Shown here piece after piece: positions 35,229 to 48,198 of a DNA stretch of 64,000 bases. The position numbers and the translations under genes are program-made. Source of the DNA: Methanotrichaceae archaeon (lineage in GTDB: Archaea; Halobacteriota; Methanosarcinia; Methanotrichales; Methanotrichaceae); contig JABLXE010000004.1 in NCBI GenBank assembly GCA_013178225.1, positions 186,001 to 250,000 on the forward strand, read 5' to 3'. Position 1 is the stretch's first letter; each line of letters begins with the position of its first letter. The notes below the pieces were generated by a model, which was not told the origin of the DNA, did no database searches, and saw only the letters and a program-made list of their open reading frames with translations.

Positions 35229-35244
35229 TGGGCGGTCACTGCCA

Positions 35245-35830
35245 TTAGGCCTGAGACGTGATATGGCCTGCATGATATGTCTGGAGGCCGTTATGGACGG
35301 AACTATACGCAAAGACCCGCATAAAGGCATGGGGCATTGCGGAAAGGCGAATCCTCCGATGAGAAGGCCAAAGCCCTAGGGGGATCAGGAATATGATCAC
35401 AACCAAAAGGCATATAATCCTTAATGATTAGATAGGTAGAATGCCGCGAGATGGGGCTGCAGCCGATTAGGCTCCGAGGGCCGTATGTCACCACACCATG
35501 GAGCGCCTCGCTTAACTGCGAAGTCTTCGGCGAAAGCAAATTAAGGCATACATCATTCTGCCATTAGTACAAAGCGCGGCGAGTAACGCATGTTTGCGGG
35601 CGAAGCGAGAGCAGGCTCTCATCATCGATGAACGGGTCCCCGTAAAAAGGGCGCTGTGCCAGATACCAGTGCTGCCTCGTGAGTAGTCTGTGTGATGGTG
35701 CGAGGCGGGCTCAAGGCCGCCACTACGGTGGTTGGTCCCTCCGAGGGAGGGCGCTGCGGATCGGTGTTTGGCTCGCCGAGAACCTCACGATAATTCGTTA
35801 TTTTCTTACTTCTCTATCCGATCGGATCTC
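35245..35830 (+). other. GC-rich RNA-like non-coding element, copy A
   Basis: This stretch is GC-rich beside AT-rich flanks, full of short self-complementary pieces (CCCTCC-GAG-GGAGGG at about 35737-35751, GAGAG-CAGG-CTCTC at about 35607-35620, GGCGG with CCGCC around 35704-35720) and has no convincing protein frame. Its 3' half (about 35630-35790) is alignable to the minus strand of 46745-46910: shared blocks include GGGTCCC, GGCGCTGTG, CCAGTGCTG and GAGGGCGCTG.GGATCGG.GTT. Orientation is arbitrary. A relic of an ORF-less group II intron or another retroelement RNA is one idea; I could not find a clear domain V. Confidence 0.45.
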
Positions 35831-35868
35831 TGTAAGCGAGTTGCGACGGGCCGCTAAAGTGCGAGATG

Positions 35869-35975
35869 ATGTGCAGGAAAATTTTCTTGGCGGACGTGTG
35901 AGGTGGGAGAGGACGGAGGTTTCGCCTCACTTGGGAAGGCGAAACCGAGCCCGATCCCGTTATGTTAGCGAGAAA
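35869..35975 (+). repeat. partial repeat with 9-bp hairpin, copy 1
   Basis: GGACGGAGGTTTCGCCTCAC, followed by TTGGGAAGGCGAAACC, recurs at about 41576-41613. GGTTTCGCC at 35918-35926 pairs with GGCGAAACC at 35938-35946. The bases before it (TGCAGGAAAATTTTCTTGG and CGGACGTGTGAGG) resemble those before copies 2 and 3. Confidence 0.7.
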
Positions 35976-36253
35976 CGCCTAAGCAGGCTAATTGTATTGG
36001 ATTATGCGCTCACCCAGTTTTCTCGATACGTTCGATAGATCAAACTGTTTTGTCTTGTTTTGAACCTCTTTCGCGATTCATCCATCCGACACCGTTTATA
36101 GCCAGTATATCGGTTTAGCACACATCGAAATATACTTTTTCGCCATGTCCCTTAGTTCGATGAGATGCAGTTTGACGTGGCATATAGGATTGCATTAGCG
36201 TCCTTCAATTAGGTTTGCAACTTCTAGCGAAAGATTAAAATCTAATCTATCAC

Positions 36254-36261
36254 GTATATAT
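36254..36261 (+). promoter_or_regulatory. TATA-like box for the DUF3303 gene
   Basis: GTATATAT lies 24-31 bases before the ATG at 36285, with GAGGTGA at 36274-36280 as the ribosome binding site. Confidence 0.4.
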
Positions 36262-36284
36262 GTTAATTAATATGAGGTGAATAC

Positions 36285-36548
36285 ATGTTATTTGTATTAT
36301 GGTTTGAATGGAATCCTGAGAACACCGATAAACTCTTGAAGCTCTGGAAGGAATTCAAATTTCCCAGTGAAGTGAAGTTAATAAATCGCTATCTAATGAT
36401 AGGCAGACATATGTCAGTAGCGATATTCGATGCTCCCAATGAAGAGTCGATATTGAAGATAACGTTCCCGTTCAAAGAGATAGGAGTACCTCACCTGGCT
36501 CCGGCATTGCCACTCGAAGACGCATTAAAAATGATGGAGAAGATGTAG
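36285..36548 (+). CDS. DUF3303 family protein
   Basis: The 87-residue protein has the DUF3303 pattern: MLFVLWFEWNPENTDKLLKL, the central IGRHMSVAIFDAPNEESIL and HLAPALPLEDALKMM. The fold is a ferredoxin-like alpha/beta dimer in related families. Its function is unknown. GAGGTGA precedes the ATG. It is the first clear gene after the 1-kb non-coding stretch. Confidence 0.85.
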   Translation: MLFVLWFEWNPENTDKLLKLWKEFKFPSEVKLINRYLMIGRHMSVAIFDAPNEESILKITFPFKEIGVPHLAPALPLEDALKMMEKM

Positions 36549-36744
36549 ATAAGGGCATGCACATACCATCTAGCCATCTATCCTATTTTGTACTTGAATC
36601 AGACTCTTACAAAGAACTCCATAATCGCTCAGGCAATTTGGCCTGCCATGCAAATCGATATAGGTCTCTTTGATATTATATATACGCTAATTAGATATAC
36701 CGTCCTTAATAACGGCGGCGCAAGTGCAAGATCGATCGATTTAG

Positions 36745-36987
36745 GTGGCGAACGTGGACATCGAATCTGTGAAAAGAAAATATGAGGGACGGCTCATGGG
36801 TCTGCCCAACGTCAACGGCGTAGGCATTGGAGTACGAGAGGGAAAAGAGGTTCTTAAGGTCTATGTGACTCAAAAAGTTCCTGAATCTCAACTCAAGCCT
36901 GAAGAGACTATTCCCAAGATTCTAGAGGGATTCGAGGTTGATGTTGATGATATTGGTTTAGTGACTTCTCAAAACCAAGAATTGTGA
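36745..36987 (+). CDS. stand-alone homologue of the protease N-terminal domain
   Basis: The 80-residue product (GTG start at 36745; a GTG at 36754 with AGGTGG seven bases upstream is an equal candidate) contains LPNVNGVGIGVREGKEVLKV, VTQKVPESQL, IPKILEGFEVDVDDIGLV. The same order of motifs (VTQKVEESRL, IPKEIEGVQTDVLAIGY) opens the protease gene that starts 12 bases downstream. It is therefore a free copy of the protease pro- or recognition domain. It might act as inhibitor, chaperone or substrate-recognition partner; this is inference. Confidence 0.8.
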   Translation: MANVDIESVKRKYEGRLMGLPNVNGVGIGVREGKEVLKVYVTQKVPESQLKPEETIPKILEGFEVDVDDIGLVTSQNQEL

Positions 36988-36999
36988 GGAGCGAAGAAA

Positions 37000-38046
37000 A
37001 TGAAATCCGAAAGCAAAATGGTGCTCTCTGTACAGGCTCTCTCGAGCGTGCAGAAAGTGCAAGCTATGGCTGTTGCCGAGATGATGAATCCTTTGCAGCC
37101 TCTCTCCAATGTCGTGGGTGTTGCCAGTGGAGTGAAATGGTCTAACGGCAAACCGACAGGAAAACCTGCACTTATCATTTTGGTCACCCAAAAAGTTGAA
37201 GAAAGCCGCCTGGAATCTTCGGATCTAATTCCCAAAGAGATAGAGGGAGTTCAGACAGATGTCTTGGCGATAGGATACCCATTTGCAGGGGGATGTGAAC
37301 CAGCTGGTGCTGGGATTCAGATATTGGCGAAAAAAGCACGTCCCGCAAAAGGCGGCTACAGCGTTGGGCATTATAAGATTACGGCCGGGACGATCTCGAC
37401 AGGTGTGTATGATATTCTCCCAGGAGGAACGATAAGCCCACCAGCACATGGAATTGGCATCCCTGCAAAGACCTACATCCTGAGCAACAATCATGTCCTG
37501 GCAAACAGCAACGACGCCTCTATCGGCGATCCCATACTTCAGCCCGGACCATATGATGGCGGAACAAATCCTGCAGATCTAATCGGCAATCTGAGCAGGT
37601 TCATCCCCATAACGTTCGAGCCGCCTACGCCGAAGGCACAACATAACAATTTAGTTGATGCAGCCCTGGCAGAAGCTCAATTTCATGATATCGACAGAGA
37701 GATTTACTGGAGTGGAGAGGTTCGAGGTTGGCGAAAAACTAGCGATGTGCCCGTCGGTACGATTATCAAGAAAACGGGGCGCACGACGAACTTCACAACC
37801 GGTAGGGTCGTTGCCATCAAAGCAACTGTTGATGTAGGATATAGCAGCGGAAAAACTGCAAGATTTAAGGATCAGTTCATTGCTACCGGCATGTCCGCAG
37901 GCGGAGACTCCGGATCGCTGGTCACTACCCTGGATAACATAGCAGTTGGACTGTTATTCGCAGGCTCAGCGACGTCGACTATCATGAATCCAATTGAGGC
38001 AGTTCGTTCTTTGTTGAATGTGGAGGTGGCCGAGCAAATTCTGTGA
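37000..38046 (+). CDS. trypsin-like serine protease with N-terminal pro-like domain
   Basis: The 348-residue protein has an N-terminal domain (about residues 1-95) shared with the preceding small gene and then a chymotrypsin-fold protease domain. The catalytic residues are in place: His in ILSNNHVLANS, Asp in NNLVDAALAEA, and Ser in MSAGGDSGSLVT. There is no signal peptide, so it acts inside the cell or leaves by another route. The arrangement resembles the trypsin-like family related to plant NAL1-type and phage or bacterial Trypsin_2 proteins. The spacing of 12 bases with GGAG upstream indicates cotranscription with the free domain. Confidence 0.85.
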   Translation: MKSESKMVLSVQALSSVQKVQAMAVAEMMNPLQPLSNVVGVASGVKWSNGKPTGKPALIILVTQKVEESRLESSDLIPKEIEGVQTDVLAIGYPFAGGCEPAGAGIQILAKKARPAKGGYSVGHYKITAGTISTGVYDILPGGTISPPAHGIGIPAKTYILSNNHVLANSNDASIGDPILQPGPYDGGTNPADLIGNLSRFIPITFEPPTPKAQHNNLVDAALAEAQFHDIDREIYWSGEVRGWRKTSDVPVGTIIKKTGRTTNFTTGRVVAIKATVDVGYSSGKTARFKDQFIATGMSAGGDSGSLVTTLDNIAVGLLFAGSATSTIMNPIEAVRSLLNVEVAEQIL

Positions 38047-38153
38047 TTTAGTGGTAAGATGACAGAGCACTAATGATTATCTGGCGGTCAGAAAATTCGG
38101 AGGAGTGGCGCGAGGCAACTTTCGACTTAATCCACATTGGGCGAGGCATCGCT

Positions 38154-38954
38154 TTAATAGCAAGAATTCCAAACTTCTTTGATCAGGCCACCAAGCATTG
38201 CTTTGGTTTGGGGGAAGCAGTCTAGCTTGTTGCCGGTCTCTTCATCCATGTATAAGGAACGGTTTACTTCGATCATAATGGAGGAGATCCTCTTGTCTCG
38301 TCCAAGATACTTTAGGGGCACGTAGGTTCCCCTGAAGGGCTTATCGAGAGCAACTGATATTCTATTTGCTTCACAGAAGTGCATAGTGGAGGATATTAGT
38401 TCTGTGGGAGTGTGGACGGGATCGGTGCCGATGCAAATGTCCGGTCGGTTCGCGGATTGGTCCAATTCGTATGGGAGCGGTTTTGATGGGAATGAGTGGC
38501 AATCTATGATCAGGCATCGCCCAAATTGTTCGAGCATTTTTTGCACTTCATTATCTAGGGCTGTGTGGTATGGCCTGAAATAGGTGGATAGAAGCGCCTC
38601 TCTTTCTTCTGCCGTTGGATCTTTTCTGAGGACTTGTTGGTGTGCAGTTTTGGTGTAGATGGAACCCATTCCTCTTGAACTCATGATTTCGTCTTCGTCA
38701 TTTTCGAATCGCTCGGGATCGACTACCAGCCTACTATGGTTGTTTATAATGGATAGGCCGCCGGAGGCGGTTATGCATTCGAAAAGCTCCGGGGTGTAGC
38801 GGTCGGTCATGAGGATCAATTCTCTAGCGAGGTCGGCGTCGCTCAGCACAATAGATTTCCGGACATCTTTGGGGATGAAGACAGAGCCGTGCGGCAGATG
38901 AGCTAGCACGGAGATTTTCGGAACTCCTTTCGAGATTTTAGTAAACGATTTCAT
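38154..38954 (-). CDS. N-formylglutamate amidohydrolase family protein
   Basis: The 266-residue enzyme-like protein has family motifs: VLAHLPHGSVFIP near the start, TDRYTPELFE, NNHSRLVVDPERF, the metal-binding LIIDCHSFPSKPLPYE, PDICIGTDPVHTP and SIMIEVNRSLYMDE. The family hydrolyses N-formylglutamate to formate and glutamate in histidine degradation, or related N-acyl amino acids. There are no histidine-degradation genes nearby, so the natural substrate is unclear. No clear ribosome binding site is seen before the ATG. Confidence 0.85.
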   Translation of the reverse strand: MKSFTKISKGVPKISVLAHLPHGSVFIPKDVRKSIVLSDADLARELILMTDRYTPELFECITASGGLSIINNHSRLVVDPERFENDEDEIMSSRGMGSIYTKTAHQQVLRKDPTAEEREALLSTYFRPYHTALDNEVQKMLEQFGRCLIIDCHSFPSKPLPYELDQSANRPDICIGTDPVHTPTELISSTMHFCEANRISVALDKPFRGTYVPLKYLGRDKRISSIMIEVNRSLYMDEETGNKLDCFPQTKAMLGGLIKEVWNSCY

Positions 38955-39094
38955 AACTGGTCTGGGCCAGAATGCGGCATTCCTATATTGATTTCGGTTT
39001 TGGGGAAGGAAGATTTTCGATACGGGAGTTTTAACATCGGCCTAAATTTGGAACGAGGTGCATTTTCTAACCATATTGTGCGTGTGCGAGGATT

Positions 39095-39190
39095 GATATG
39101 GGATATATGGGCTATTTCTCTATTTAAGGGAAGAATTTGGACGGCTATAATATTATAAGGGCAGGAGAAATAGCCTATATGACCAATGCA
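39095..39190. repeat. palindromic element, copy A
   Basis: The left arm GATATGGGATATATGGGC plus TATTTCTC (39095-39120) is complementary to the right arm GAGAAATAGCCTATAT plus GACCAAT (39165-39187), giving a long imperfect inverted repeat with a 44-base centre. Related copies lie at 45296-45390 and 45594-45691. Confidence 0.75.
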
Positions 39191-39613
39191 CTTAGATTTG
39201 AGCAACTGTGTTTGCTCCATGAAAGAGGCTATGTGAATTGGTGATAAACTTGTAACCTCATGGCATCTTTTGGGATACTCATCGCGAATTTCTGGCATCA
39301 TGGTTGAAGCTAAAAACGGTGGTGTATCGATAGCTAAATAAACAAAACCAAATTAAACTCCCAAAAAATAGAATTTATGGATAATCAAAGAAGTGGTGGT
39401 TTGCCCGCGTGTAATGTACCTTTTAGGTCCCTAAAAGGTTCAATATATTTTGTATAACCATTTCATCTATGGATAAATGCATTTTTGATACTTATAGCAT
39501 AATCTTAATTTAGGTTCATTAGATTTTTATGGTCCGCTTAACCTAATTTATTTTACTGAATTGATAGAATCGAATGGAATTGGCGAAACAACACCTGGGA
39601 GGCGAGAACTACT
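39191..39613. other. AT-rich intergenic region
   Basis: No gene is seen. TACCTTTTAGGTCCCTAAAAGG at about 39417-39438 contains a short CCTTTTAGG-type palindrome. The region probably holds the promoter of the winged-helix gene at 39614 (AATTTATTTTACTG around 39545). Confidence 0.35.
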
Positions 39614-39862
39614 ATGAAGAGGAGCAAATACGAGATAGTATCACAAATCTTGAACATATGCAAAGGTGGAGCCAACAAAACCAGGATCGTGTATCAGGTC
39701 AATTTGAATTTCAAAACGGTAAATCCTTATTTGGATTTATTAGTCAAAAATGATCTCATAAGTTCCAAGCAGAATACAACCATCGTATATGAGACAACGG
39801 ATAAGGGATTGGATCTATTAGACAGTTATGAACGAGTTCAAAACCAGATAAACGATATTTAA
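39614..39862 (+). CDS. archaeal winged-helix transcriptional regulator (HTH_45 type)
   Basis: The 82-residue protein is a single winged helix: KYEIVSQILNICKGGANKTR (helix 1), IVYQVNLNFKTVNPYLDLL (recognition helix), LISSKQNTTIVYETTDKG (wing) and a C-terminal helix LDLLDSYERVQNQI that commonly dimerises. This is the common small archaeal regulator fold of the PF14947 type. GGGAGG lies about 16 bases upstream. The target is unknown. Confidence 0.88.
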   Translation: MKRSKYEIVSQILNICKGGANKTRIVYQVNLNFKTVNPYLDLLVKNDLISSKQNTTIVYETTDKGLDLLDSYERVQNQINDI

Positions 39863-40204
39863 GGGAAATATTTTTTTAATTCTGGAATTCTATTTTTGTC
39901 GCTGAACATTTGCAAACTGCTTACTTGCACAATCTTTCCCAACTATCCTTGTATTCCCAGTTCCAGCCGAATCTTAAGATCATCAGGGTCTCCCATCGCC
40001 AGATGGAGAGCTGCATTGAGATTGCACTGAAAATATCCGTAATGGCATTCGTTAATTGGATCACATTATAGTGGTAATCGTAATGATTAAAAAAGATTAG
40101 CCGGGATTGTCCGGTACCTTTTGCCGCAATCGATAGATAGGAACCCTTTAATCTTCCAATGAATATAATAGGAAATTCAAGACATTAATAGAATATGGAT
40201 AGAG
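39863..40204. other. intergenic region, nothing recognised
   Basis: AT-rich sequence with scattered stops in all frames. No RNA or protein gene is supported. Confidence 0.4.
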
Positions 40205-40444
40205 TTAAATATCATAAAGGATAACGTATGGATTAGTAGGGACTTCCTCTACAGCGGCCCAGGGTGCTACATTGCCCTCAGCTTCACTAAATCCTGGGCC
40301 GTCAATCCTCTAAGTTGAATACTTTGCTAGGGTCTTCTTGCGGCGTGCCCATCTCCGGGATTCTCGCTTCAAATCCTCTTTCTCGATGGCATTACGACCC
40401 GCTCGTCCTAATAGACCGTCCCGGTTCTTCCTTGGACGCCCCAC
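40205..40444 (-). other. small basic ORF with AT-hook-like start and in-frame amber codon
   Basis: On the minus strand GGAGGG precedes a GTG at 40444. The frame reads M-GRPRKNRDGLLGRAGRN, then a very basic helix ESRRWARRKKTLAKYST, then TAG at 40310-40312. The same frame continues without a stop for 34 more codons (RIDGPGFSEAEGNVAPWAA and following) to TAA at 40205. Eight bases after the TAG a perfect 9-bp stem begins (CGGCCCAGG at 40255-40263 with CCTGGGCCG at 40293-40301). GRPRK is an AT-hook core. It may be a decayed transposon protein, a 44-residue gene followed by a terminator-like hairpin, or a readthrough case. Confidence 0.4.
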
Positions 40445-40566
40445 GGATTATCCCTCCAAGGATTCTACTGCATCAAAATGTTAGTACATTAATAATATAA
40501 AAATCTAATGAATGGATGGATGGATTCCAATATCGAAAACGAGTTATATCTTGGCTTTAAAGAAAT

Positions 40567-40575
40567 TATTTATAT
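40567..40575 (+). promoter_or_regulatory. TATA-like box for the winged-helix gene at 40612
   Basis: ATTTATATG lies about 37-45 bases before the ATG, and AAGGAGGGAGC supplies the ribosome binding site. Confidence 0.4.
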
Positions 40576-40611
40576 GATTATGTCCATTTGAAAAATAAGG
40601 AGGGAGCTGTC

Positions 40612-40989
40612 ATGAGAGACGTTGCTATTGAGGTTGTAGGTGAGAGGGATATGGAGTTCGTCGAGACCTTGCGGAGTATTGGTGCACACAGAAACGTGGC
40701 TAAGATTATAACCTATTTAAAAGATGTTGAGAGCGCATCTTCGCGTGATATAGAGAGGGCCACTGATCTTAGGCAGCCAGAGGTCAGCATTGCCATGCGG
40801 ACCTTGCGTGAAAACGGCTGGATAGAAGAGGCCGACGTTAAGGGAAACGGTAAGGGTAGACCGCTGAAGATCTATTCTCTGCGGGTGGGCATGGACGAAA
40901 TCATAAGGTTTTACGAAGGGGAGAAGAGCCGAGAAGCATCTCGGGCTATGGGGGCCATTCAGAGGCTTAAGGAGCTGAGTTCCGTTTAA
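40612..40989 (+). CDS. winged-helix transcriptional regulator, ArsR/TrmB-like
   Basis: The 125-residue protein contains a winged helix: VAKIITYLKDVESASSRDIE, RATDLRQPEVSIAMRTL (recognition helix) and NGWIEEADVKGNGKGRPLKIY (wing), followed by a C-terminal helix rich in Arg and Glu. This is a common archaeal one-domain regulator. AGGAGG before the ATG at 40612 decides against the upstream in-frame ATG at 40588. The regulated genes are unknown; there is no operon partner. Confidence 0.88.
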   Translation: MRDVAIEVVGERDMEFVETLRSIGAHRNVAKIITYLKDVESASSRDIERATDLRQPEVSIAMRTLRENGWIEEADVKGNGKGRPLKIYSLRVGMDEIIRFYEGEKSREASRAMGAIQRLKELSSV

Positions 40990-41103
40990 TCCAACATATT
41001 CGCTGATGTGAAACAGTATAGCCAAAACATCCCAGATTATTGAAGAGACGATCGGGCAAGTGGTGAAGATTAGAGGTCGAATTGCACGATCGTCTCTATC
41101 CGA

Positions 41104-41211
41104 TCAAAACGGATTTTCTCCTTCATAAATTCTTACACCTAAGCAAATCGCTTCCTCGACCACTGCAAGGTCCTTCATGACGAACAATCGATCGGAAGTG
41201 GTCTCCTTCAT
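41104..41211 (-). CDS. small protein of 35 residues overlapping the frameshifted gene
   Basis: ATG at 41211 overlaps the stop of the upstream minus-strand gene (ATGA junction) and gives MKETTSDRLFVMKDL, then AVVEEAICLGVRIYEG and ENPF. The overlap suggests translational coupling, or that it is the tail of a once longer protein. The product is not recognised. Confidence 0.4.
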   Translation of the reverse strand: MKETTSDRLFVMKDLAVVEEAICLGVRIYEGENPF

Positions 41212-41508
41212 GGCAAGGAATTCTTGAGGATCTGCGCATACTTGGAAGATTTAGGTAGCTGGACCACATAACCAGTCAAGTCTTCCACCAGATCGTAGTC
41301 AAAACCGCTTCGCTCCAGAAGCTTGAGGGCATTGTTCCGAGTGCCGGCGGATTTGAACTCGAATCGATACCGATCCTTGTTGTAGTTGCCCAATAGCGTC
41401 GTGTACAGCTGCCTTGTCTTCAAAGAACTGCTTGAATACCCAGATCTTGCCGATCTTGAATACGTTGATGTGCTTGCGTTTGGGGACTACATCGAAGGTG
41501 GGGGACAT
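41208..41508 (-). pseudogene. frameshifted conserved small protein
   Basis: Two frames together form one continuous-looking protein. From ATG at 41508 one frame reads PKRKHINVFKIGKIWVFKQF and FEDKAAV. From about 41420 the sense moves to the next frame, LLGNYNKDRYRFEFKSAG and RNNALKLLERSGFDYDLVED, ending at 41208. A single-base indel near 41390-41420 would join them. No function is known. It may be a true pseudogene, a sequencing error, or a programmed shift. It lies directly beside a repeat copy at 41521. Confidence 0.6.
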
Positions 41509-41520
41509 TGTTCGGAACAA

Positions 41521-41640
41521 AATATGCTAGAGAACTGGCCTTTAATATTCCCTTCGGCATGCGGACAAGGTCGGGAGGACGGAGGTTTCGCCTCACTTGG
41601 GGAGGGCGAAACCGGAGTCCGATCTCATTGAGCGAAGTTT
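41521..41640 (+). repeat. partial repeat with 9-bp hairpin, copy 2
   Basis: GGACGGAGGTTTCGCCTCAC is identical to copy 1. The stem is GGTTTCGCC (41584-41592) with GGCGAAACC (41605-41613). Upstream, ATGCTAGAGAAC and TTAATATTCCCTTCGG plus GCGGACAAGG match the pattern at 45181 (copy 3). Confidence 0.7.
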
Positions 41641-41675
41641 AGTTAGCCAATGTGCTGCCGCCTTGATTTTGGGCT

Positions 41676-42083
41676 TTAGGCCGTTACTTTGGTTCTTGCG
41701 ATGTATTTGATGAGATCTGAGCCGAGCTTAGTCTTCTTTTGAACCTCATTTGTTACATCCTCCATGCCGACACCGCTTGCCGCCAGTGTGTGGATCTCTT
41801 CCATAGTGGCGTTATCAACAGTGTAGTACTCGTCTAGGTCCTTTCTGTGGCCCCACACGTCTCCTTCAAGCAGTTCTACCCCCTGCATGTCCAGAAATAC
41901 CTTGATGGCATCGGACATGGTCTTCATGTAGGAAGGAGGCGTCTGGATCATTTGTAGCCGAGGAGCTTTCTGAAGAAGGTTGAGGAAGTCCAGGTTGGAT
42001 GCTCTGAATGATAGATGGACGGCCTTTTCATTCGGTCTAATCGAATCGATTTCCTCTCTTTTGCTGATTACTTTAATTTTCAT
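41676..42083 (-). CDS. DUF1699 family protein (paralogue 1)
   Basis: The 135-residue protein has the DUF1699 signature: NEKAVHLSFRASNLDFLNLL, QTPPSYMKTMSDAIKVFLDM and EGDVWGHRKDLDEYYTVD, with a helical tail ending YIARTKV. The family is largely confined to methanogens and has no known role. GGTGAT upstream of the ATG supports the start. It is clearly paralogous to the gene at 47428 on the other strand (WGHRKDLDEYYTVD is identical). Confidence 0.88.
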   Translation of the reverse strand: MKIKVISKREEIDSIRPNEKAVHLSFRASNLDFLNLLQKAPRLQMIQTPPSYMKTMSDAIKVFLDMQGVELLEGDVWGHRKDLDEYYTVDNATMEEIHTLAASGVGMEDVTNEVQKKTKLGSDLIKYIARTKVTA

Positions 42084-42190
42084 GAGATATCACCTACTTG
42101 AATTTCTTATACGACATTCAACGTATATAAAATTTTCCAATTAAGGCAAATGACTATATTTCAACAAACCATTGGCTGCACAGAGCAGCA

Positions 42191-43122
42191 TTAGTGTCTG
42201 GTGAATGCCAGCTGATCGATGGTGCACTCTTCCGGAGATTTATCGGTCCTTCTTCTGAGGAACACGGGAGCCCTAAGGTGGCCCCTCTTGGAGACCTCCA
42301 TGGCCACTACCTCGACCCCGAGTTCAGGTTTCAGCCATTGCACATCTTTCCGGTCAGGAGGATTGTGAAACGGAGGAACTTCTGATGCCCGGAACTCACT
42401 GGATATCTCTTCCAGCTCCTGTTGCGAGAACCCGATCCAACCCGTCCCATGTACACCAATTTCCCCGAGTCATAGGCACCAACAAGCAGGCTTCCGAAGA
42501 ACGGTTCTCTCTGCCCCTGGCCGAGCATGTACCCGCCAACCACCAGGTCCAAGGTTAAATGCCTCTTTATCTTGACCCAGTCCCGGCTTCTAACCCCCGG
42601 CTGATAAGGAGACGCCAGCCTCTTGGCCATAATCCCCTCCAGGCCTCTTTGCAGAGCGGCCTTGAAATAGGCCTCACCGTCACCCTGAAGGTAATCGATG
42701 ATGGTGACGAGGTCGTTCTCCTGCAGTTCCTGTTTCAGTATCGCTTTGCGCTCGACTAGAGGCCGGTCCATCAGGCTCTCAGGGCCTCGGTAGAGGATAT
42801 CGAACACTATATAGCTGGCAGGCAGGGCTTTGGATAGGTAGTCGATCCGAATGGGATTGACCTGCTGTTCGCGTACTTCCAGTTACCCGAAATCAGGTAT
42901 GCCCTTGGAGAAGACGGCCAGCTCACCGTCCAGGATGCAGTTGCTTGCGGCCGTCTGCAGCGATCCGGTGATCTCAGGATAACGATTGGTGATGAGCCTC
43001 AGCCTGCGGTTCTGAAGCACTACGGTGCCGTTGGAGATGTGAGCGAGGCACCTGGTCCCGTCCTATCTTGGGCTAGAATATCCATTCGTTGCTGGAGAAT
43101 GCTTGGCCTTGATGGGATTCAT
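42191..43122 (-). pseudogene. LigD-type ATP-dependent DNA ligase, inactivated
   Basis: Fragments in order on the minus strand match an NHEJ ligase: an EWIF..PK segment and the DGTRCLAHISNG motif carrying the AMP-lysine region, ILDGELAVFSKGIPDFG, then an in-frame TAA near 42883, NPIRIDYLSKALPASYIVFD, GLEGIMAKRLASPYQPG, WVKIKRHLTLDLVVGGY, then a frameshift near 42440 and GFSQQELEEISSEFR to DKSPEECTIDQLAF. A stop and a frameshift also break the catalytic lysine motif at about 43060-43075. The start ATG at 43122 lies 2 bases past the Ku stop, so this was the second gene of a Ku-ligase operon. Confidence 0.85.
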
Positions 43123-43124
43123 GA

Positions 43125-43958
43125 TCACTTCAGCGATTCAGCAGTAGCTCTCAGCTCGTCCATCAGGTTCCTGGCCTCGGGGCGGACCGCCTTCTTCTCC
43201 AGCTGGACGACCTCTCCCTTGATCTTGGACTGGACCATGGCTTCTATTCTCTCGCGGTATGAATCCTTGAACACCGTGATATCGAGATCCTTGGTGAGCT
43301 TTTTCACGATCTCCAGGCCCAGAGATATTTCGCTCTCGGAGGGTTCAGGAAGGTCTTTCAGTGCACTGGCCTTGCTGGGGTCCAGCACTTCATCGCTGTA
43401 TCTCATCAGCGTGGCCACAATGGCCTCCTGGTAGTAATGAACCAGGACGATGTGTTCCTTGGACCTCATGGTCATCAGACCGATCGCGGCCTTGCCGGTC
43501 TTCTCCATGAGCTTCCGGAGCAAAGAATAAGCTCTCTCCGACCTGTCGGGAACCAGGAGTAGGGTGTTTTCGAAGTAATGGGGATCTGCCTGGAAGAAGT
43601 CCACGAACTCCTTCAGATCGATGATATCGCTTGATTCAGGTTTGGCCGCTTCGATCTCTTCGTTGTTGAAGATCACGTACTTTTTGTGGCCGAGGGCATA
43701 GCCGTGGACGATCTCTTTAGTCTGGACCTCCTCACCCTCCTCGCAATACTTCTTGTAGTGGATGGGAGTGCCACAGGTCTGGTGGATCATCTTGAAGCTT
43801 ACCCTTTTGTCCCTGGTAATTGGGATGGCCTTTACCGGGACATTCACCAGTCCCATGCTCAGGCTGCCTGACCAGATGGCTTTGGGCAGGATGAGTTCTT
43901 CCTCCGCCGGTCCCTCTTTTGCCTCCTGTTTCTCGGAGAGCTTCTGGGACTTTTTCAT
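43125..43958 (-). CDS. ku: Ku protein of non-homologous end joining
   Basis: The intact 277-residue homodimeric Ku protein threads onto double-strand DNA ends. Family features are AIWSGSLSMGLVNVPVKAI at the start of the beta-barrel, FKMIHQTCGTPIHYKKYCEEG, VHGYALGHKKYVIFNNEEI, LLVPDRSERAYSLL and the C-terminal helix YRERIEAMVQSKIKGE. The N terminus has a charged extension of about 25 residues. It is the first gene of an operon whose ligase is broken, and a decayed second Ku lies at 49.6 kb. Its present role without the ligase is doubtful unless another ligase serves. Confidence 0.95.
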   Translation of the reverse strand: MKKSQKLSEKQEAKEGPAEEELILPKAIWSGSLSMGLVNVPVKAIPITRDKRVSFKMIHQTCGTPIHYKKYCEEGEEVQTKEIVHGYALGHKKYVIFNNEEIEAAKPESSDIIDLKEFVDFFQADPHYFENTLLLVPDRSERAYSLLRKLMEKTGKAAIGLMTMRSKEHIVLVHYYQEAIVATLMRYSDEVLDPSKASALKDLPEPSESEISLGLEIVKKLTKDLDITVFKDSYRERIEAMVQSKIKGEVVQLEKKAVRPEARNLMDELRATAESLK

Positions 43959-44115
43959 GATTTATAGTTGGTGTTCTAAATACAAAAATTTATCAGCAAG
44001 AAATGCCCTCGGATGATTCTTTTGCGAAGAGACTCTTAATTACCCATGTGTCGCGGTTTTCAATCAAAAGTTCAAATTGGATGAACGCCAATAAGAAGTC
44101 AAGGGGATTTCAAAT

Positions 44116-45096
44116 ATGGCAAACGATACTTGCAAAGCGGCAAAGACCGAGATAAAGAAGAGGCTGAGCTGTGTGATCTTATTGGTCATGCTTATGGCCA
44201 TGATGCCGGTGGCTCAATGTAATGGAGATTACCTAAGGCCGGACATGGGCCTAAAGTATCCGGCAGATTGGCTAGAAAGCGGATATTCTTCGGTCCAGGC
44301 AACATCTAGCGATAGGGTATCCGCTGCAGAATCCGATGCAGATATGCTCTTCATGCTACTTCAGATTCAGGCTGATGTGCAGGGTAATCTGACCGATTCG
44401 GATTCAGCTTTGGCGAATGCCGCCCAAGAACTCTCAACATTGGGATTGGAAGGAACCGCTGCCCGTGAGGTTCTTCGCAAGTTAGTAGAGACTGATGCGA
44501 ATCTGGTTTCGGGAATTATATTTAGCAAGGATGGCAAGATCACCATAGCTGCGGGTAAAGGAAGCGAGAATGCCGTAGGGGCCGACATAAGCGGCCAAGA
44601 ACATATTGTCCACCTATTGAAGGCCAAAACACCTGTTTTTAGCAAACAGCTGCTTCTGGTGGAAGGATATAATGGCACTGCTATTGCATATCCGGTATTT
44701 TCTCCAGAAGGCGAGTTCATGGGAGGCATTAGTGCGATCATCGCGCCTGATAAGCTGCTAAATTCCGTGGTAGCTCCCCAACTCCACTTTGATATATCGA
44801 GTAGGAGCAACATTACCGACTATAGCTTCTGGTTAATGCATCTTGACGGGCTTATTGCCTACGATCGGGATGAAAGCCAGATAGGGAAGTACCTTTTCGA
44901 AGACCCGCTTTACCAGTCGTACCCAAGCCTACTGGAACTGGGACACAGGATCGCTGCCGAGAGGTCGGGCCATGGGTACTATAGCTTCCTGGAAACTGAA
45001 GGCGATGAAAAGGTAGTTACCAAGGAGAGCTACTGGACAACGGCAGGGCTGCATGGCAGGGAATGGAGGCTTGTCGTGACCAAAATAACGCAATGA
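44116..45096 (+). CDS. secreted Cache-domain (PDC) sensor-like protein
   Basis: The 326-residue protein begins with a charged N terminus, one hydrophobic segment (VILLVMLMAMMPVAQC, about residues 17-35) and then a double Cache fold: VSGIIFSKDGKITIAAGKGS, TAIAYPVFSPEGEFMGGISA and the second half NITDYSFWLMHLDGLIAYDR, QIGKYLFEDPLYQSYPS. Cache domains bind small ligands outside the cell. No second membrane segment or output domain follows, so it is a free or membrane-tethered binding module that would need a partner. Confidence 0.82.
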   Translation: MANDTCKAAKTEIKKRLSCVILLVMLMAMMPVAQCNGDYLRPDMGLKYPADWLESGYSSVQATSSDRVSAAESDADMLFMLLQIQADVQGNLTDSDSALANAAQELSTLGLEGTAAREVLRKLVETDANLVSGIIFSKDGKITIAAGKGSENAVGADISGQEHIVHLLKAKTPVFSKQLLLVEGYNGTAIAYPVFSPEGEFMGGISAIIAPDKLLNSVVAPQLHFDISSRSNITDYSFWLMHLDGLIAYDRDESQIGKYLFEDPLYQSYPSLLELGHRIAAERSGHGYYSFLETEGDEKVVTKESYWTTAGLHGREWRLVVTKITQ

Positions 45097-45180
45097 ATGC
45101 GGTGCCGAGTCTCTCCTCTTCCTGATACGTTGTTGAGGACATTCTTGCGGCGTATCATGGAAGTGAATTTGTGCATCTGA

Positions 45181-45250
45181 TGTGCTAGAGAATGTTAGGC
45201 AATATTTCCTCTTGAACGTGCGGAAGAGGAGAGGGAACTTGGGATGATTC
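45181..45250 (+). repeat. partial repeat, copy 3 (lacks the hairpin)
   Basis: TGTGCTAGAGAATGTTAGGC, AATATTTCCTCTTGAACG and TGCGGAAGAGGAGAGGGA match the left part of copy 2 at 41521 (TATGCTAGAGAACTGGCC, TAATATTCCCTT, GCGGACAAGG). The GGTTTCGCC hairpin part is missing. Confidence 0.5.
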
Positions 45251-45295
45251 GGCATGAGCCTCAATGAAGACCGATTACTATCAGCATGCGAGATG

Positions 45296-45390
45296 GATAT
45301 GGGCTATATGGTCTATTTTCTATTTAAGAGAAGTGTTTAAAAAAGATAGTACTAGAAGAGCGATAAAAACGACCCATATGACCAATCTGC
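45296..45390. repeat. palindromic element, copy B
   Basis: GATATGGGCTATATGGTC plus TATTTTCTATTTAAGAGAAG at the left and CGATAAAAACGACCCATATG plus ACCAATCTG at the right match copy A (39095-39190) in arm sequence, order and length. Confidence 0.7.
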
Positions 45391-45593
45391 CTTGGATTAT
45401 TGGATACCGACCTACCCGATGACAAAGGATCAAATCAAAGTAAGGTTGATATTGCAGATCAGATATTTTATTAAGAAATGAGCTTGATTGGTCCACCGAG
45501 GAGAGTTTCGAAAAGAATGAGAAAGTGCTTGAAAAGCTCATGGAGGGTCATTCGTTGAAGCCTCCGGGATTTAAGGAATAAGTTGAGTTTCGA

Positions 45594-45691
45594 CCATATG
45601 GGTCATATTGGTCATTTCTATAACCTACTGCACAACAAAGAAAAATGAATTGATGAGAATAATAGAAAGAATAACCCATATAGCCCATCTG
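45594..45691. repeat. palindromic element, copy C
   Basis: CCATATGGGTCATATTGGTC plus ATTTCTAT at the left mirrors ATAGAAAGAATAACCCATAT plus AGCCCATCTG at the right, with about 38 bases between. It has the same layout as copies A and B. Confidence 0.7.
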
Positions 45692-45834
45692 AATTAGATC
45701 ACCGGATCTAAACACAAGATGTGCTTCAGGTGACAGGATTCTTTTTAAGGTATCGGGAAAGTATTTGTACTTGTTTCGAGTAAGAGTATCATAGAAGCGG
45801 CAGTGAAATTGGGCCAAAACCGATAGCGGGGTTT

Positions 45835-45852
45835 GGGGGTCCGCAGACCCCC
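45835..45852. repeat. perfect GC hairpin just before the tRNA
   Basis: GGGGGTC (45835-45841), loop CGCA, GACCCCC (45846-45852). It begins just after GCGGGG at 45827-45832, which would be the expected 5' acceptor sequence of the tRNA that follows. Confidence 0.6.
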
Positions 45853-45854
45853 GA

Positions 45855-45939
45855 CCGGGGGTTGCCAAGCCAGGTCAAAGGCGCAGGGTTGAGGGCCCTG
45901 TCACGTAGGTGTTCGCGGGTTCGAATCCCGTCCCCGCAT
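45855..45939 (+). tRNA. tRNA-Leu (GAG), acceptor stem degenerate
   Basis: The D arm (GCC-AAGCCAGGTCAAA-GGC), the anticodon arm CAGGG-TTGAGGG-CCCTG with anticodon GAG, a long class II variable arm (TCACGTAGGTGT) and the T arm GCGGG-TTCGAAT-CCCGT are all present. The acceptor 5' side CCGGGGG (45855-45861) pairs with CCCCGCA (45932-45938) at only four positions, where a leucine tRNA should show GCGGGGG with CCCCCGC. It is probably a damaged or alternatively bounded gene. A hairpin terminator follows directly. Confidence 0.75.
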
Positions 45940-45942
45940 ATT

Positions 45943-45967
45943 GTTCGCCTGCGGGCGAACGTTTTTT
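45943..45967 (+). terminator. terminator after tRNA-Leu
   Basis: GTTCGCC (45943-45949) pairs with GGCGAAC (45954-45960), followed by G and six T residues. Confidence 0.8.
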
Positions 45968-46189
45968 GCTTTGCTATATCTCCTGCTTTATAAACCTTAA
46001 TTTGTCCTCTGGAATATATGCTTTCCTGAGGATCGGGCATAACCCTGTCACCTTATTTTAGGGCCATGATATACAACCCTGCGCCTTTGACGGCTGCTGC
46101 GGCAGCCTGGTCGTCGGCTGCGGCCGACTCCCTGACCTGGGGCCTATTTATATATATCTCCGAATCTTTCGGCGAAGCCGATCTTGGAA

Positions 46190-46432
46190 TCAAAACCGTA
46201 GCATCTTCAGGATCCGCTCCTGATAGGCGGCCATCTCGTTGCAATTAAAGTTATCCTGATCGTAGCTTTTCAGGAGGCTCTGACCGATCAGAGTCTCAAC
46301 ACCATTGATGGAATGATCGAGCCAGGGATCTACTTGAAGCGTAAAGCCAAAACCCAGCCAGAGATTGTGGAGTAGAATGACTAAGGAACCGTCTGAGATC
46401 GATGTGATTGGGGGAGCTGCGGGCCTGGCCAG
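46190..46432 (-). pseudogene. headless coding-like fragment
   Basis: A minus-strand frame without a usable start reads NLWLGFGFTLQVDPWLDHSI, NGVETLIGQSLLKSYDQDNF, NCNEMAAYQERILKMLRF and stops at 46190. The second half looks like genuine helical protein. It is probably the tail of a lost gene. No family is recognised. Confidence 0.3.
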
Positions 46433-46739
46433 CTATCAAGCCCCATCACTCCGATCTTTTGCCTCCTCCTTTCTATAGCTGGCTTTCCGGGCAATTGGGT
46501 TTGCCAGGAGGAGATATTAAGGCTTGCCATAAGCATCAGCGCTGATATAACAAGCTTCAGGAGGATGGTTCAGCCTGATCCGAGTATTGGATTAGAAGGA
46601 GGGAGGCAAAAGTCTCGGGTGTAGGAGGGGGAACGAAAATCGATCTTGACTCTTGCCAATGCACCATACGTCGATTGCCGAACATATATAGTTTGCGCCA
46701 TTGAAGCATAAATCAGTAATCTCCAAAGAAGCTCTGATA

Positions 46740-47045
46740 AAAGCAAATCGAGTTGCAGGCGGGTCAACGCCGATCCACAGCGCCCTCTTTTAAGGAGCCT
46801 TTCACGCGGTGGTGAAGGCCTGACCCCGCCCGGAATCTCGACACTCGCTGCGCCAGAAAGGCAGCACAGCACTGGAATTTCACACAGCGCCCCTCTCACA
46901 GGGACCCAACATCTTCTCGATGCAAGGTCTGCACCATGGCTCTTGGCCAACAGCTTGTGCCGCGTCCCGCCCCAAACTGCTTTGCGAGGGAGTATCCCGG
47001 ATCCAGGGAATGAGCAGCGACATGCTACGCCCGTAACAGCGTGCA
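46740..47045 (-). other. GC-rich RNA-like non-coding element, copy B
   Basis: The minus strand aligns with copy A (35.6-35.8 kb): GGGTCCCTGTGAGAGGGGCG, CTGTG, CCAGTGCTG, GGCGGGGTCAGGCC, then GAGGGCGCTGTGGATCGG, CG, TTGACCCGCC. The gaps differ in length but the block order is the same. An open minus-strand frame of about 158 codons spans it, but it matches no family and the corresponding frame in copy A is interrupted, so I treat it as non-coding. It could extend upstream to about 47220. Confidence 0.45.
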
Positions 47046-47427
47046 TTTATCTGGTCGCTTGATACTCATCCTCCCCGGTGGCTTTCCGGATGCCATGCTT
47101 TCGAGCTGCACGGCACCTCTGAAGGCTTCTTGGAACACCCAGGTCAAGCAGATTCACGGAGGATCTGCCGGGCCGGATTCCTCATCCCTTTCGAGCTGGG
47201 CCGGTGAGCCTGCCCTCGCCTCTACAGCGCAGAACGCGGCAAACTATCTATATATTCGTTATAGATACAAATAGTTTGCGGTTGATCGATAGGACGAGAG
47301 AGATTGTCCGAATAGAATTCAAAGCAAAGGATTTGATCGCCACGCATTTTGTTGAAATTTTAACAGATGTGTATAGCTGGAAGTGTCTATTAATAATATG
47401 AAGGATTTTACGTGCGTGAGTGATAAA
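47046..47427. other. intergenic region upstream of DUF1699 paralogue 2
   Basis: GC-rich up to about 47230 (possibly the outer part of element B), then AT-rich with TATCTATATATTCGTTATAG at 47246-47265, a likely TATA region. No gene is supported. Confidence 0.35.
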
Positions 47428-47835
47428 ATGAGATTCAGAGTAGTTAGCGCAAGAAATGAAATTCCGGATTTAAACCCGAATGAGAAAGCCATTCACATGG
47501 CCTTCAGGGCTTCGAATGTGGACTTCCTGAACCTGATGCAGAGATGCCCCCGGCTGAGAGTGCTCCAGACGCCTCCTTCTTACAAGAAGACCATGTCCAG
47601 TGCTATCCAGGTATTCCTGGAGATGCAGGGCATTGAGCTGCTGGAAGGCGATGTGTGGGGTCACAGAAAGGACCTGGACGAGTACTACACCGTGGACGAT
47701 GCTACAGTTGAGGAGATTCGCGCCCTGGCCGATAGCGGCGCAAACCTGGATGAGGTCGCAAGTCAGATCCAGGCGAAGTCCCGGCTGGCTCCGGACCTGG
47801 TAAAGTACATCGCCAGAACCAAAGCCAGCGCTTGA
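47428..47835 (+). CDS. DUF1699 family protein (paralogue 2)
   Basis: The 135-residue protein has the same motifs as paralogue 1: NEKAIHMAFRASNVDFLNLM, QTPPSYKKTMSSAIQVFLEM and EGDVWGHRKDLDEYYTVDD, ending YIARTKASA. The ATG at 47428, which opens MRFRVVSARNEI, is preferred to the in-frame start at 47383 because the family starts there; TGAGTG upstream can serve as a weak ribosome binding site. Function unknown. Confidence 0.88.
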   Translation: MRFRVVSARNEIPDLNPNEKAIHMAFRASNVDFLNLMQRCPRLRVLQTPPSYKKTMSSAIQVFLEMQGIELLEGDVWGHRKDLDEYYTVDDATVEEIRALADSGANLDEVASQIQAKSRLAPDLVKYIARTKASA

Positions 47836-48024
47836 GCCGGACCGCCCCCTCCCGGAGCCAGCGCAAAAGCCGGCTCCCCCCTTTCCTGCATCACTTTTTG
47901 GTCGCTGCCATCTGCGAAGAATTTAATAAGTTAGCCTGCTATTATTAGCGCAAACTTTTACTGCACCTTTGACCTTAGGCAGGGGTCCCGGTCCTGAGTC
48001 GGGCCGGGATGGAGATGGGGAAAT

Positions 48025-48198
48025 TTGGCGAGAAAAGCTAAGAAGAATGACGCCGTCATGACCGGCATCCTGGTTACCAGGTTCAAGATGGGGTTGATCG
48101 ATGTCGAGGACCTGGAGCACATGGCAGAGGACCTCTCGGGTTCGGAGAGGGCCTCGGCGGCGAAAAAGGTGCTGGCAGCGATCGAGGATTCAGCCTGA
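48025..48198 (+). CDS. small protein of 57 residues
   Basis: A TTG start after GGAGATGGGG gives ARKAKKNDAVMTGILVTRF, KMGLIDVEDLEHMAEDLSGS and ERASAAKKVLAAIEDSA. It is a compact helical, charged protein with codon use like its neighbours (GAC, GAG and CTG preferred). It is not recognised. Confidence 0.5.
   Translation: MARKAKKNDAVMTGILVTRFKMGLIDVEDLEHMAEDLSGSERASAAKKVLAAIEDSA

Follow-up and report, generated by a model that had tools for sequence, protein, structure and literature searches.

What kind of element is represented by two related, GC-rich stretches that lie on opposite strands of a 64,000-nucleotide piece of DNA from a Methanotrichaceae archaeon (contig JABLXE010000004.1; the whole piece is called the window here)? 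When the region of the first stretch, copy A, was compared with the whole window by blastn, positions 35634-35777 aligned with the opposite strand at 46907-46758, which is part of the second stretch, copy B (66% over 153 columns, E ~1e-9). An earlier note, made from the sequence alone, had described an ordered series of blocks shared by the two stretches. The blastn alignment and inspection of the sequences show that the blocks are indeed collinear in A and B, and that the motifs GGGTCCC, GGCGCTGTG, CCAGTGCTG, GGCGGG.TCA.GGCC and GAGGGCGCTG.GGATCGG are all located within the matching stretch. Copies A and B are probably genes of one structured, independently transcribed, trans-acting non-coding RNA (ncRNA) family, about 350-500 nucleotides (nt) long and specific to the Methanotrichaceae, which is called RNA1 below. 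At the sequence level, RNA1 is an RNA family that has its own promoter and a conserved structure, is restricted to one lineage and has been inherited vertically in at least one subclass.

In an alignment of 69 RNA1 copies with their flanks, conservation spans the region from the promoter through the T-rich end. The promoter consensus is roughly CCGMAAACTAnnnnTATCTATAAYGAT....GTTTGCCGCG. Its layout is that of an archaeal promoter with a transcription factor B recognition element (BRE) and a TATA box, and is common to the subclasses A, B and C described below and to all genera examined. A 26-base promoter pattern, allowed up to three mismatches, occurs three times in the genome to which the window belongs, each time before an RNA1 copy; the reversed pattern, used as a control, has no occurrence there. 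Over all copies, the first 10-base bin past the 3' domain has a T content of 50% and the second one of 44%, compared with about 30% farther on. The conservation of the promoter and the T-rich end gives limits of about 47245-46740 for copy B and about 35440-35808 for copy A (Table 1). The intervals proposed in the earlier note contain the conserved 3' domain, which is the best-conserved part of the element, but the full units are longer, extending from the promoter to the U-rich end; the left portion of its interval for A (35229 to about 35439) comprises the promoter and flanking sequence. These features support a putative promoter and 3' end belonging to RNA1 itself.

Table 1. Coordinates of the RNA1 copies, RNA2 and associated features in the window
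Feature	Position	Strand	Remarks
RNA1 gene, copy A	35440-35808	+	About 369 nt; subclass A; 5' end +/- about 5 bases; promoter-proximal TGCCGCG aligned with other copies; T-rich 3' end; groups in the tree with one-per-genome copies of eight other genomes
Copy A, TATA-box-like element GCATATAATCC	35410-35420	+	From sequence; in register with the promoters of other copies
Copy A, conserved 3' domain	35628-35790	+	Match to covariance model R1, 101 bits
Copy A flank, probable DUF1699 relic	35901-36106		Similar (67% over 224 columns, E = 4e-19) to the 3' end of the DUF1699 gene at 41676-42083 (-) together with the hairpin that follows it
RNA1 gene, copy B	46740-47245	-	About 506 nt; subclass B; 5' end +/- about 5 bases; covariance model R1, 148.6 bits; 69-copy alignment with promoter and T-rich end; minimum free energy (MFE) z-score -3.2
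Copy B, BRE/TATA promoter element CCGCAAACTATTTGTATCTATAACGA	47256-47281	-	Shared promoter alignment
Copy B, conserved 3' domain	46745-46913	-	9-10 helices; two modules, each a YCC hairpin beside a CGCUG hairpin
Copy B, T-rich 3' end, terminator-like	46739-46747	-	From sequence; T enrichment over all copies
RNA2, hairpin RNA in tandem downstream of copy B	46598-46660	-	About 63 nt; CCCUCCUACA loop, CCUCCCUCC tail; nhmmer and covariance model R2; MFE z-score -2.66
RNA2, promoter-like CGCAAACTATATAT	46684-46697	-	RNA2 plus element region, 46588-46697
DUF1699 gene, divergent from copy B	47383-47835	+	PF08004, E = 4.6e-55; within duplicated segment

The structural model of the 3' domain has 50 base pairs. 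It was compared with two alignments, a structure-blind MAFFT alignment of 68 RNA1 copies (A1) and an alignment of 103 copies made with a covariance model (CM) and thus fitted to the structure (A2). Shuffles and slid pairing partners served as controls, and flips from C-G to G-C were counted as double changes. In A1, 92.0% of the cells are paired and double changes are found at 24 of the 50 pairs, with at least one in each modelled helix; the double-change cells number 111, compared with 47.2 (standard deviation (sd) 5.3) after shuffling and 25-66 after sliding. In A2, double changes are found at 36 of the 50 pairs and in 334 cells, compared with 122 (sd 10) after shuffling, where 0 of 500 shuffles reached the observed value, and 42-70 after sliding. 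A tree-aware covariation test, self-written after the idea of R-scape and stricter than the counting of double changes, gives five significant pairs in five helices of A2 (E < 0.05), and 16 of the 50 pairs rank in the top 1% of column pairs. Copy B also folds better than shuffled sequence (Table 1). The compensatory changes, well above both kinds of control, support one predicted consensus structure for RNA1, in agreement with the selection on RNA structure suggested earlier.

The modelled 3' domain includes two similar modules, each having a UCC-loop-GGR hairpin beside a CGCUG-loop-CAGUG (or CGGCG) hairpin, and a junction of three hairpins. Because of this internal repeat, the first module of A is also matched to the second module of B by blastn. 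The 5' domain is closed by GCCGCG...CGCGGC. Its proposed structure has weaker support than that of the 3' domain, with 84% of cells paired and 180 double-change cells, compared with 80 (sd 10) in shuffled and 84-99 in slid controls. A structure-free covariation screen of the whole transcript, limited by the alignment quality of the 5' domain, yielded one significant pair.

RNA1 occurs far beyond the window. Searching with copy B, blastn finds five places in the 2.98-Mb genome of the window and matches in 32 of the 50 genomes of the family, whose records are named Methanothrix, Methanosaeta or Methanotrichaceae. Iterated nhmmer, started from the first loci fetched, gives 74 matches. A CM of the 3' domain (R1, 166 positions; matches counted at E <= 0.01) gives 138 matches across 34 of the 50 genomes, with a maximum of 11 copies in a genome. 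Seven of these are in the window's own genome, one of them (C13) being weak. Such a search of the family genomes had been proposed in the earlier note, and its result agrees with the multi-copy RNA element imagined there. When 238 genomes of the class were scanned with the same model, every match fell in the family, with none in the approximately 190 other genomes; a sample of 394 genomes of the phylum includes seven RNA1-positive genomes, all in the family and none elsewhere. An exact scan for a 25-base core in 84,980 named genomes returned 19 contigs, all titled Methanothrix, Methanosaeta, Methanotrichaceae or uncultured Methanosarcinales/archaeon. The distribution supports an apparent restriction of RNA1 to the Methanotrichaceae. 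The core pattern is absent from the 2.9 million viral contigs of IMG/VR, and a virus origin was rejected on that ground.

The tree of alignment A2 divides the copies into three subclasses. Class A is a clade in which copy A is joined by a single copy from each of eight other genomes. In class C, a genome nearly always has a single copy. Copy B clusters with the other copies of its own genome, so that class B has expanded within lineages; its members are dispersed and often stand in tandem with a small RNA, called RNA2. In most loci of one genus, class C is flanked by a small uncharacterised gene on one side and by an Hsp20 gene on the other, and a genome from a second genus shows the same arrangement. 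Having long been kept at one locus, class C appears to be an inherited RNA gene rather than a mobile relic. The proposal that copies A and B are relics is not supported, because promoters, 3' ends and structure have been retained and one subclass occupies a constant locus across genera.

RNA2 is preceded by a BRE/TATA-like element of its own and has a 10-bp stem, with CCUCC (anti-Shine-Dalgarno) motifs in its loop and tail. The stem is 97% paired, but its conservation is too high for strong covariation to appear. RNA2 is found in 37 of 103 RNA1 loci, mostly of class B, on the same strand and at most 65 nt downstream of RNA1. A second model (CM R2) detects RNA2 in all 50 family genomes, with 2-15 copies in each and 12 in the window's own genome; beyond the family, there are single weaker matches in 18 other genomes of the class. 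RNA2 has no match in Rfam. Since CCUCC is complementary to the core of the Shine-Dalgarno sequence, RNA2 may mask ribosome binding sites, a mode of action for which sRNA162 of Methanosarcina mazei is a tested precedent (PMC3510493). In the genome of one relative, four tandem copies of RNA2 lie within about 1.1 kb (locus L109, approximately 1499-2563).

Alternatively, RNA1 might be a cis-acting leader or attenuator, forming the 5' part of a longer transcript and controlling the gene or RNA that follows, namely Hsp20 in class C and RNA2 in class B. Class C is on the same strand as, and upstream of, Hsp20 in most loci, and in most tandem loci RNA2 follows class B at a distance of 44-65 nt on the same strand. 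However, most RNA1 copies share no downstream gene, class A having none at all, RNA1 ends in a T-rich stretch, and RNA2 carries a promoter-like element of its own. The variation of the downstream genes makes a cis-regulatory role less likely, and this explanation is considered unlikely. Most RNA1 loci have no neighbour in common and their flanking genes vary widely, which, together with the vertical inheritance indicated by the synteny of class C, favours action in trans.

A selfish or mobile non-autonomous element with a structured transcript, resembling a miniature inverted-repeat transposable element (MITE) or a retro-RNA, would account for the high copy number in some genomes, the dispersal of class B and the presence of a recent, 92%-identical copy of B in the same genome. 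That copy, detected by blastn, nevertheless belongs to a duplication that spans at least 1.67 kb (46413-48086; segment identity 91.6%) and also includes a DUF1699 gene and RNA2, so that RNA1 was not the unit that moved. A MITE is itself the moving unit, and this was not observed for RNA1, target duplications not having been searched for systematically. The single locus of class C in two genera, the one-per-genome occurrence of class A and the lack of the core in viral contigs further speak against mobility, which is quite improbable as an explanation of RNA1.

The group II intron relic without a reading frame that the earlier note had considered, GC-rich, structured, multi-domain and multi-copy as RNA1 is, can hardly be correct, because neither A nor B matches a group II model of Rfam at E <= 10 or shows a domain V, and RNA1 lies outside genes with its own conserved promoter and U-rich end and, in class C, is inherited vertically in synteny. 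It is just as hard to believe in a decayed protein gene or transposase: two open reading frames, 119 and 158 codons long, do overlap copies A and B, but these have no match in Pfam, a typical copy has 4-6 stops in each frame with no frame staying open across the family, 85% of the pairwise insertions and deletions are not multiples of three, and base changes are compensatory. The earlier statements that no protein family fits and that the frames are not conserved were correct, and neither of the outcomes named there as fatal to an RNA, a lack of other copies in the genome or the identification of both stretches as decayed transposase genes, was encountered.

Several observations weigh against the interpretation of RNA1 as a family of independently transcribed, trans-acting RNAs. 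The tree-aware test finds no significant pair in the structure-blind alignment A1, copies within one genome are not independent in the covariation counts, and copy A folds no better than shuffled sequence (z = -0.16). Transcription of RNA1 is deduced from its promoter and 3' end. No RNA1 match passed the filter applied in 4 of the 11 genera, and neither the window's own genome nor five others of the family carry a class C copy at their Hsp20 loci, showing that RNA1 is not essential everywhere. The best duplexes between RNA1 and the loop of RNA2 are not stronger than those formed with shuffled RNA1 (mean z +0.5).

If RNA1 is a trans-acting ncRNA, it would be transcribed from its own promoter and would function as a folded molecule, neither through a reading frame nor by controlling the adjacent gene; its most likely role would be that of a scaffold or of a regulator that binds protein. 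The duplicated hairpin module would be a likely site of protein binding or dimerisation. Class B loci would probably be paired RNA loci, in which the small partner RNA2 blocks ribosome binding sites. A more far-reaching proposal is that RNA1 represents an archaeal RNA machine of a new kind, confined to acetate-splitting Methanothrix relatives and working as a ribonucleoprotein (RNP) or RNA oligomer assembled through the repeated hairpin module, which, in the expanded tandem loci with their anti-Shine-Dalgarno partner RNA, sets translation globally. This proposal is doubtful.

Searches of Rfam 15 did not identify RNA1. At the gathering score, only a transfer RNA (tRNA) was matched in the whole window, and likewise only a tRNA when seven loci were searched at E <= 1. 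At E <= 10, copy A has no match and copy B has four matches of the small nucleolar RNA type, far below their cut-offs (the best, snoU82P, at 18.3 bits compared with 42). No paper on RNA1 and no described ncRNA of this sort was found in the literature for Methanothrix and its relatives. Since no catalogued family matches, RNA1 is rated as a new family within the known kind of large structured orphan ncRNAs. A weak tRNA match in the window, at 45858-45935 (+), scores 31.1 bits against a cut-off of 29 and is possibly a diverged tRNA gene.

Archaeal RNase P and signal recognition particle RNAs are structured and roughly in the size range of RNA1, and the C/D and H/ACA guides are likewise structured archaeal ncRNAs, but RNA1 matches none of these housekeeping RNAs at the gathering score. 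The OLE, ROOL and GOLLD families, which are presumably included in Rfam release 15, were also not matched by the window, the seven loci or copies A and B. Like RNA1 as proposed here, these three are long, highly structured and independently transcribed, lack a reading frame and have functions that are not evident from sequence (PMC12286853). They are large ornate families of bacteria or phages, whereas RNA1 is archaeal, 350-500 nt long, multi-copy and built with an internally repeated hairpin module. The sRNA162 of M. mazei, a related methanogen, and its homologue sRNA171 are, as is RNA1, structured, lineage-restricted RNAs with paralogues, and act in trans, as proposed for RNA1 (PMC3510493). 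However, sRNA162 is shorter than RNA1 (a 3' fragment extends to nt 191) and differs from it in architecture, having three stem-loops, and its homologues are reported only in Methanosarcina; RNA2 is similar to sRNA162 at most in the proposed mode of action.

Methanothrix and its relatives are major producers of methane from acetate. The occurrence in this family of RNA1, with three subclasses of which one is syntenic across genera, and of RNA2 in 50 of 50 genomes points to RNA-based regulation or RNP biology that is missed by current annotation. The covariance models R1 and R2 make both RNAs directly searchable in transcriptomes.

The sole recurrent protein neighbour of RNA1 is DUF1699. In the window's own genome, four of the six strong RNA1 copies have one of the ten DUF1699 genes at a distance of 268-545 bp, compared with a mean of 0.045 for random placement, but at least three of these four pairs are in duplicated segments and the pairs are thus not independent. 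DUF1699 is present in 50 of 50 family genomes, including those in which RNA1 was not found, and is therefore at most a candidate partner protein of RNA1, suggested by proximity. The AlphaFold model of DUF1699 (mean predicted local distance difference test (pLDDT) 79, predicted template modelling score (pTM) 0.51) shows three helices after a small alpha/beta domain. The predicted fold has no match in the PDB at E <= 0.001, no clear sequence relative was found there, and no paper on the function of DUF1699 was found in the literature.

The DUF1699 genes are amplified, numbering ten in the window's own genome (including those at 41676-42083 and 47383-47835) and up to 19 in one relative. In the probable DUF1699 relic beside copy A no readable protein match is left. 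A second repeated hairpin, GGTTTCGCC...GGCGAAACC, is found at 35901-35960, adjoining copy A, and at 41568-41630, where the DUF1699 gene of 41676-42083 has it on its downstream side. On the minus strand this hairpin has a CUCCCC loop and a CCUCC-rich tail, and may be another small RNA of the CCUCC type or a 3' element of DUF1699. The intergenic sequence at 46157-46330 shares 76% identity with DNA close to the RNA1 copy of contig C27 and has the look of a decayed gene's end.

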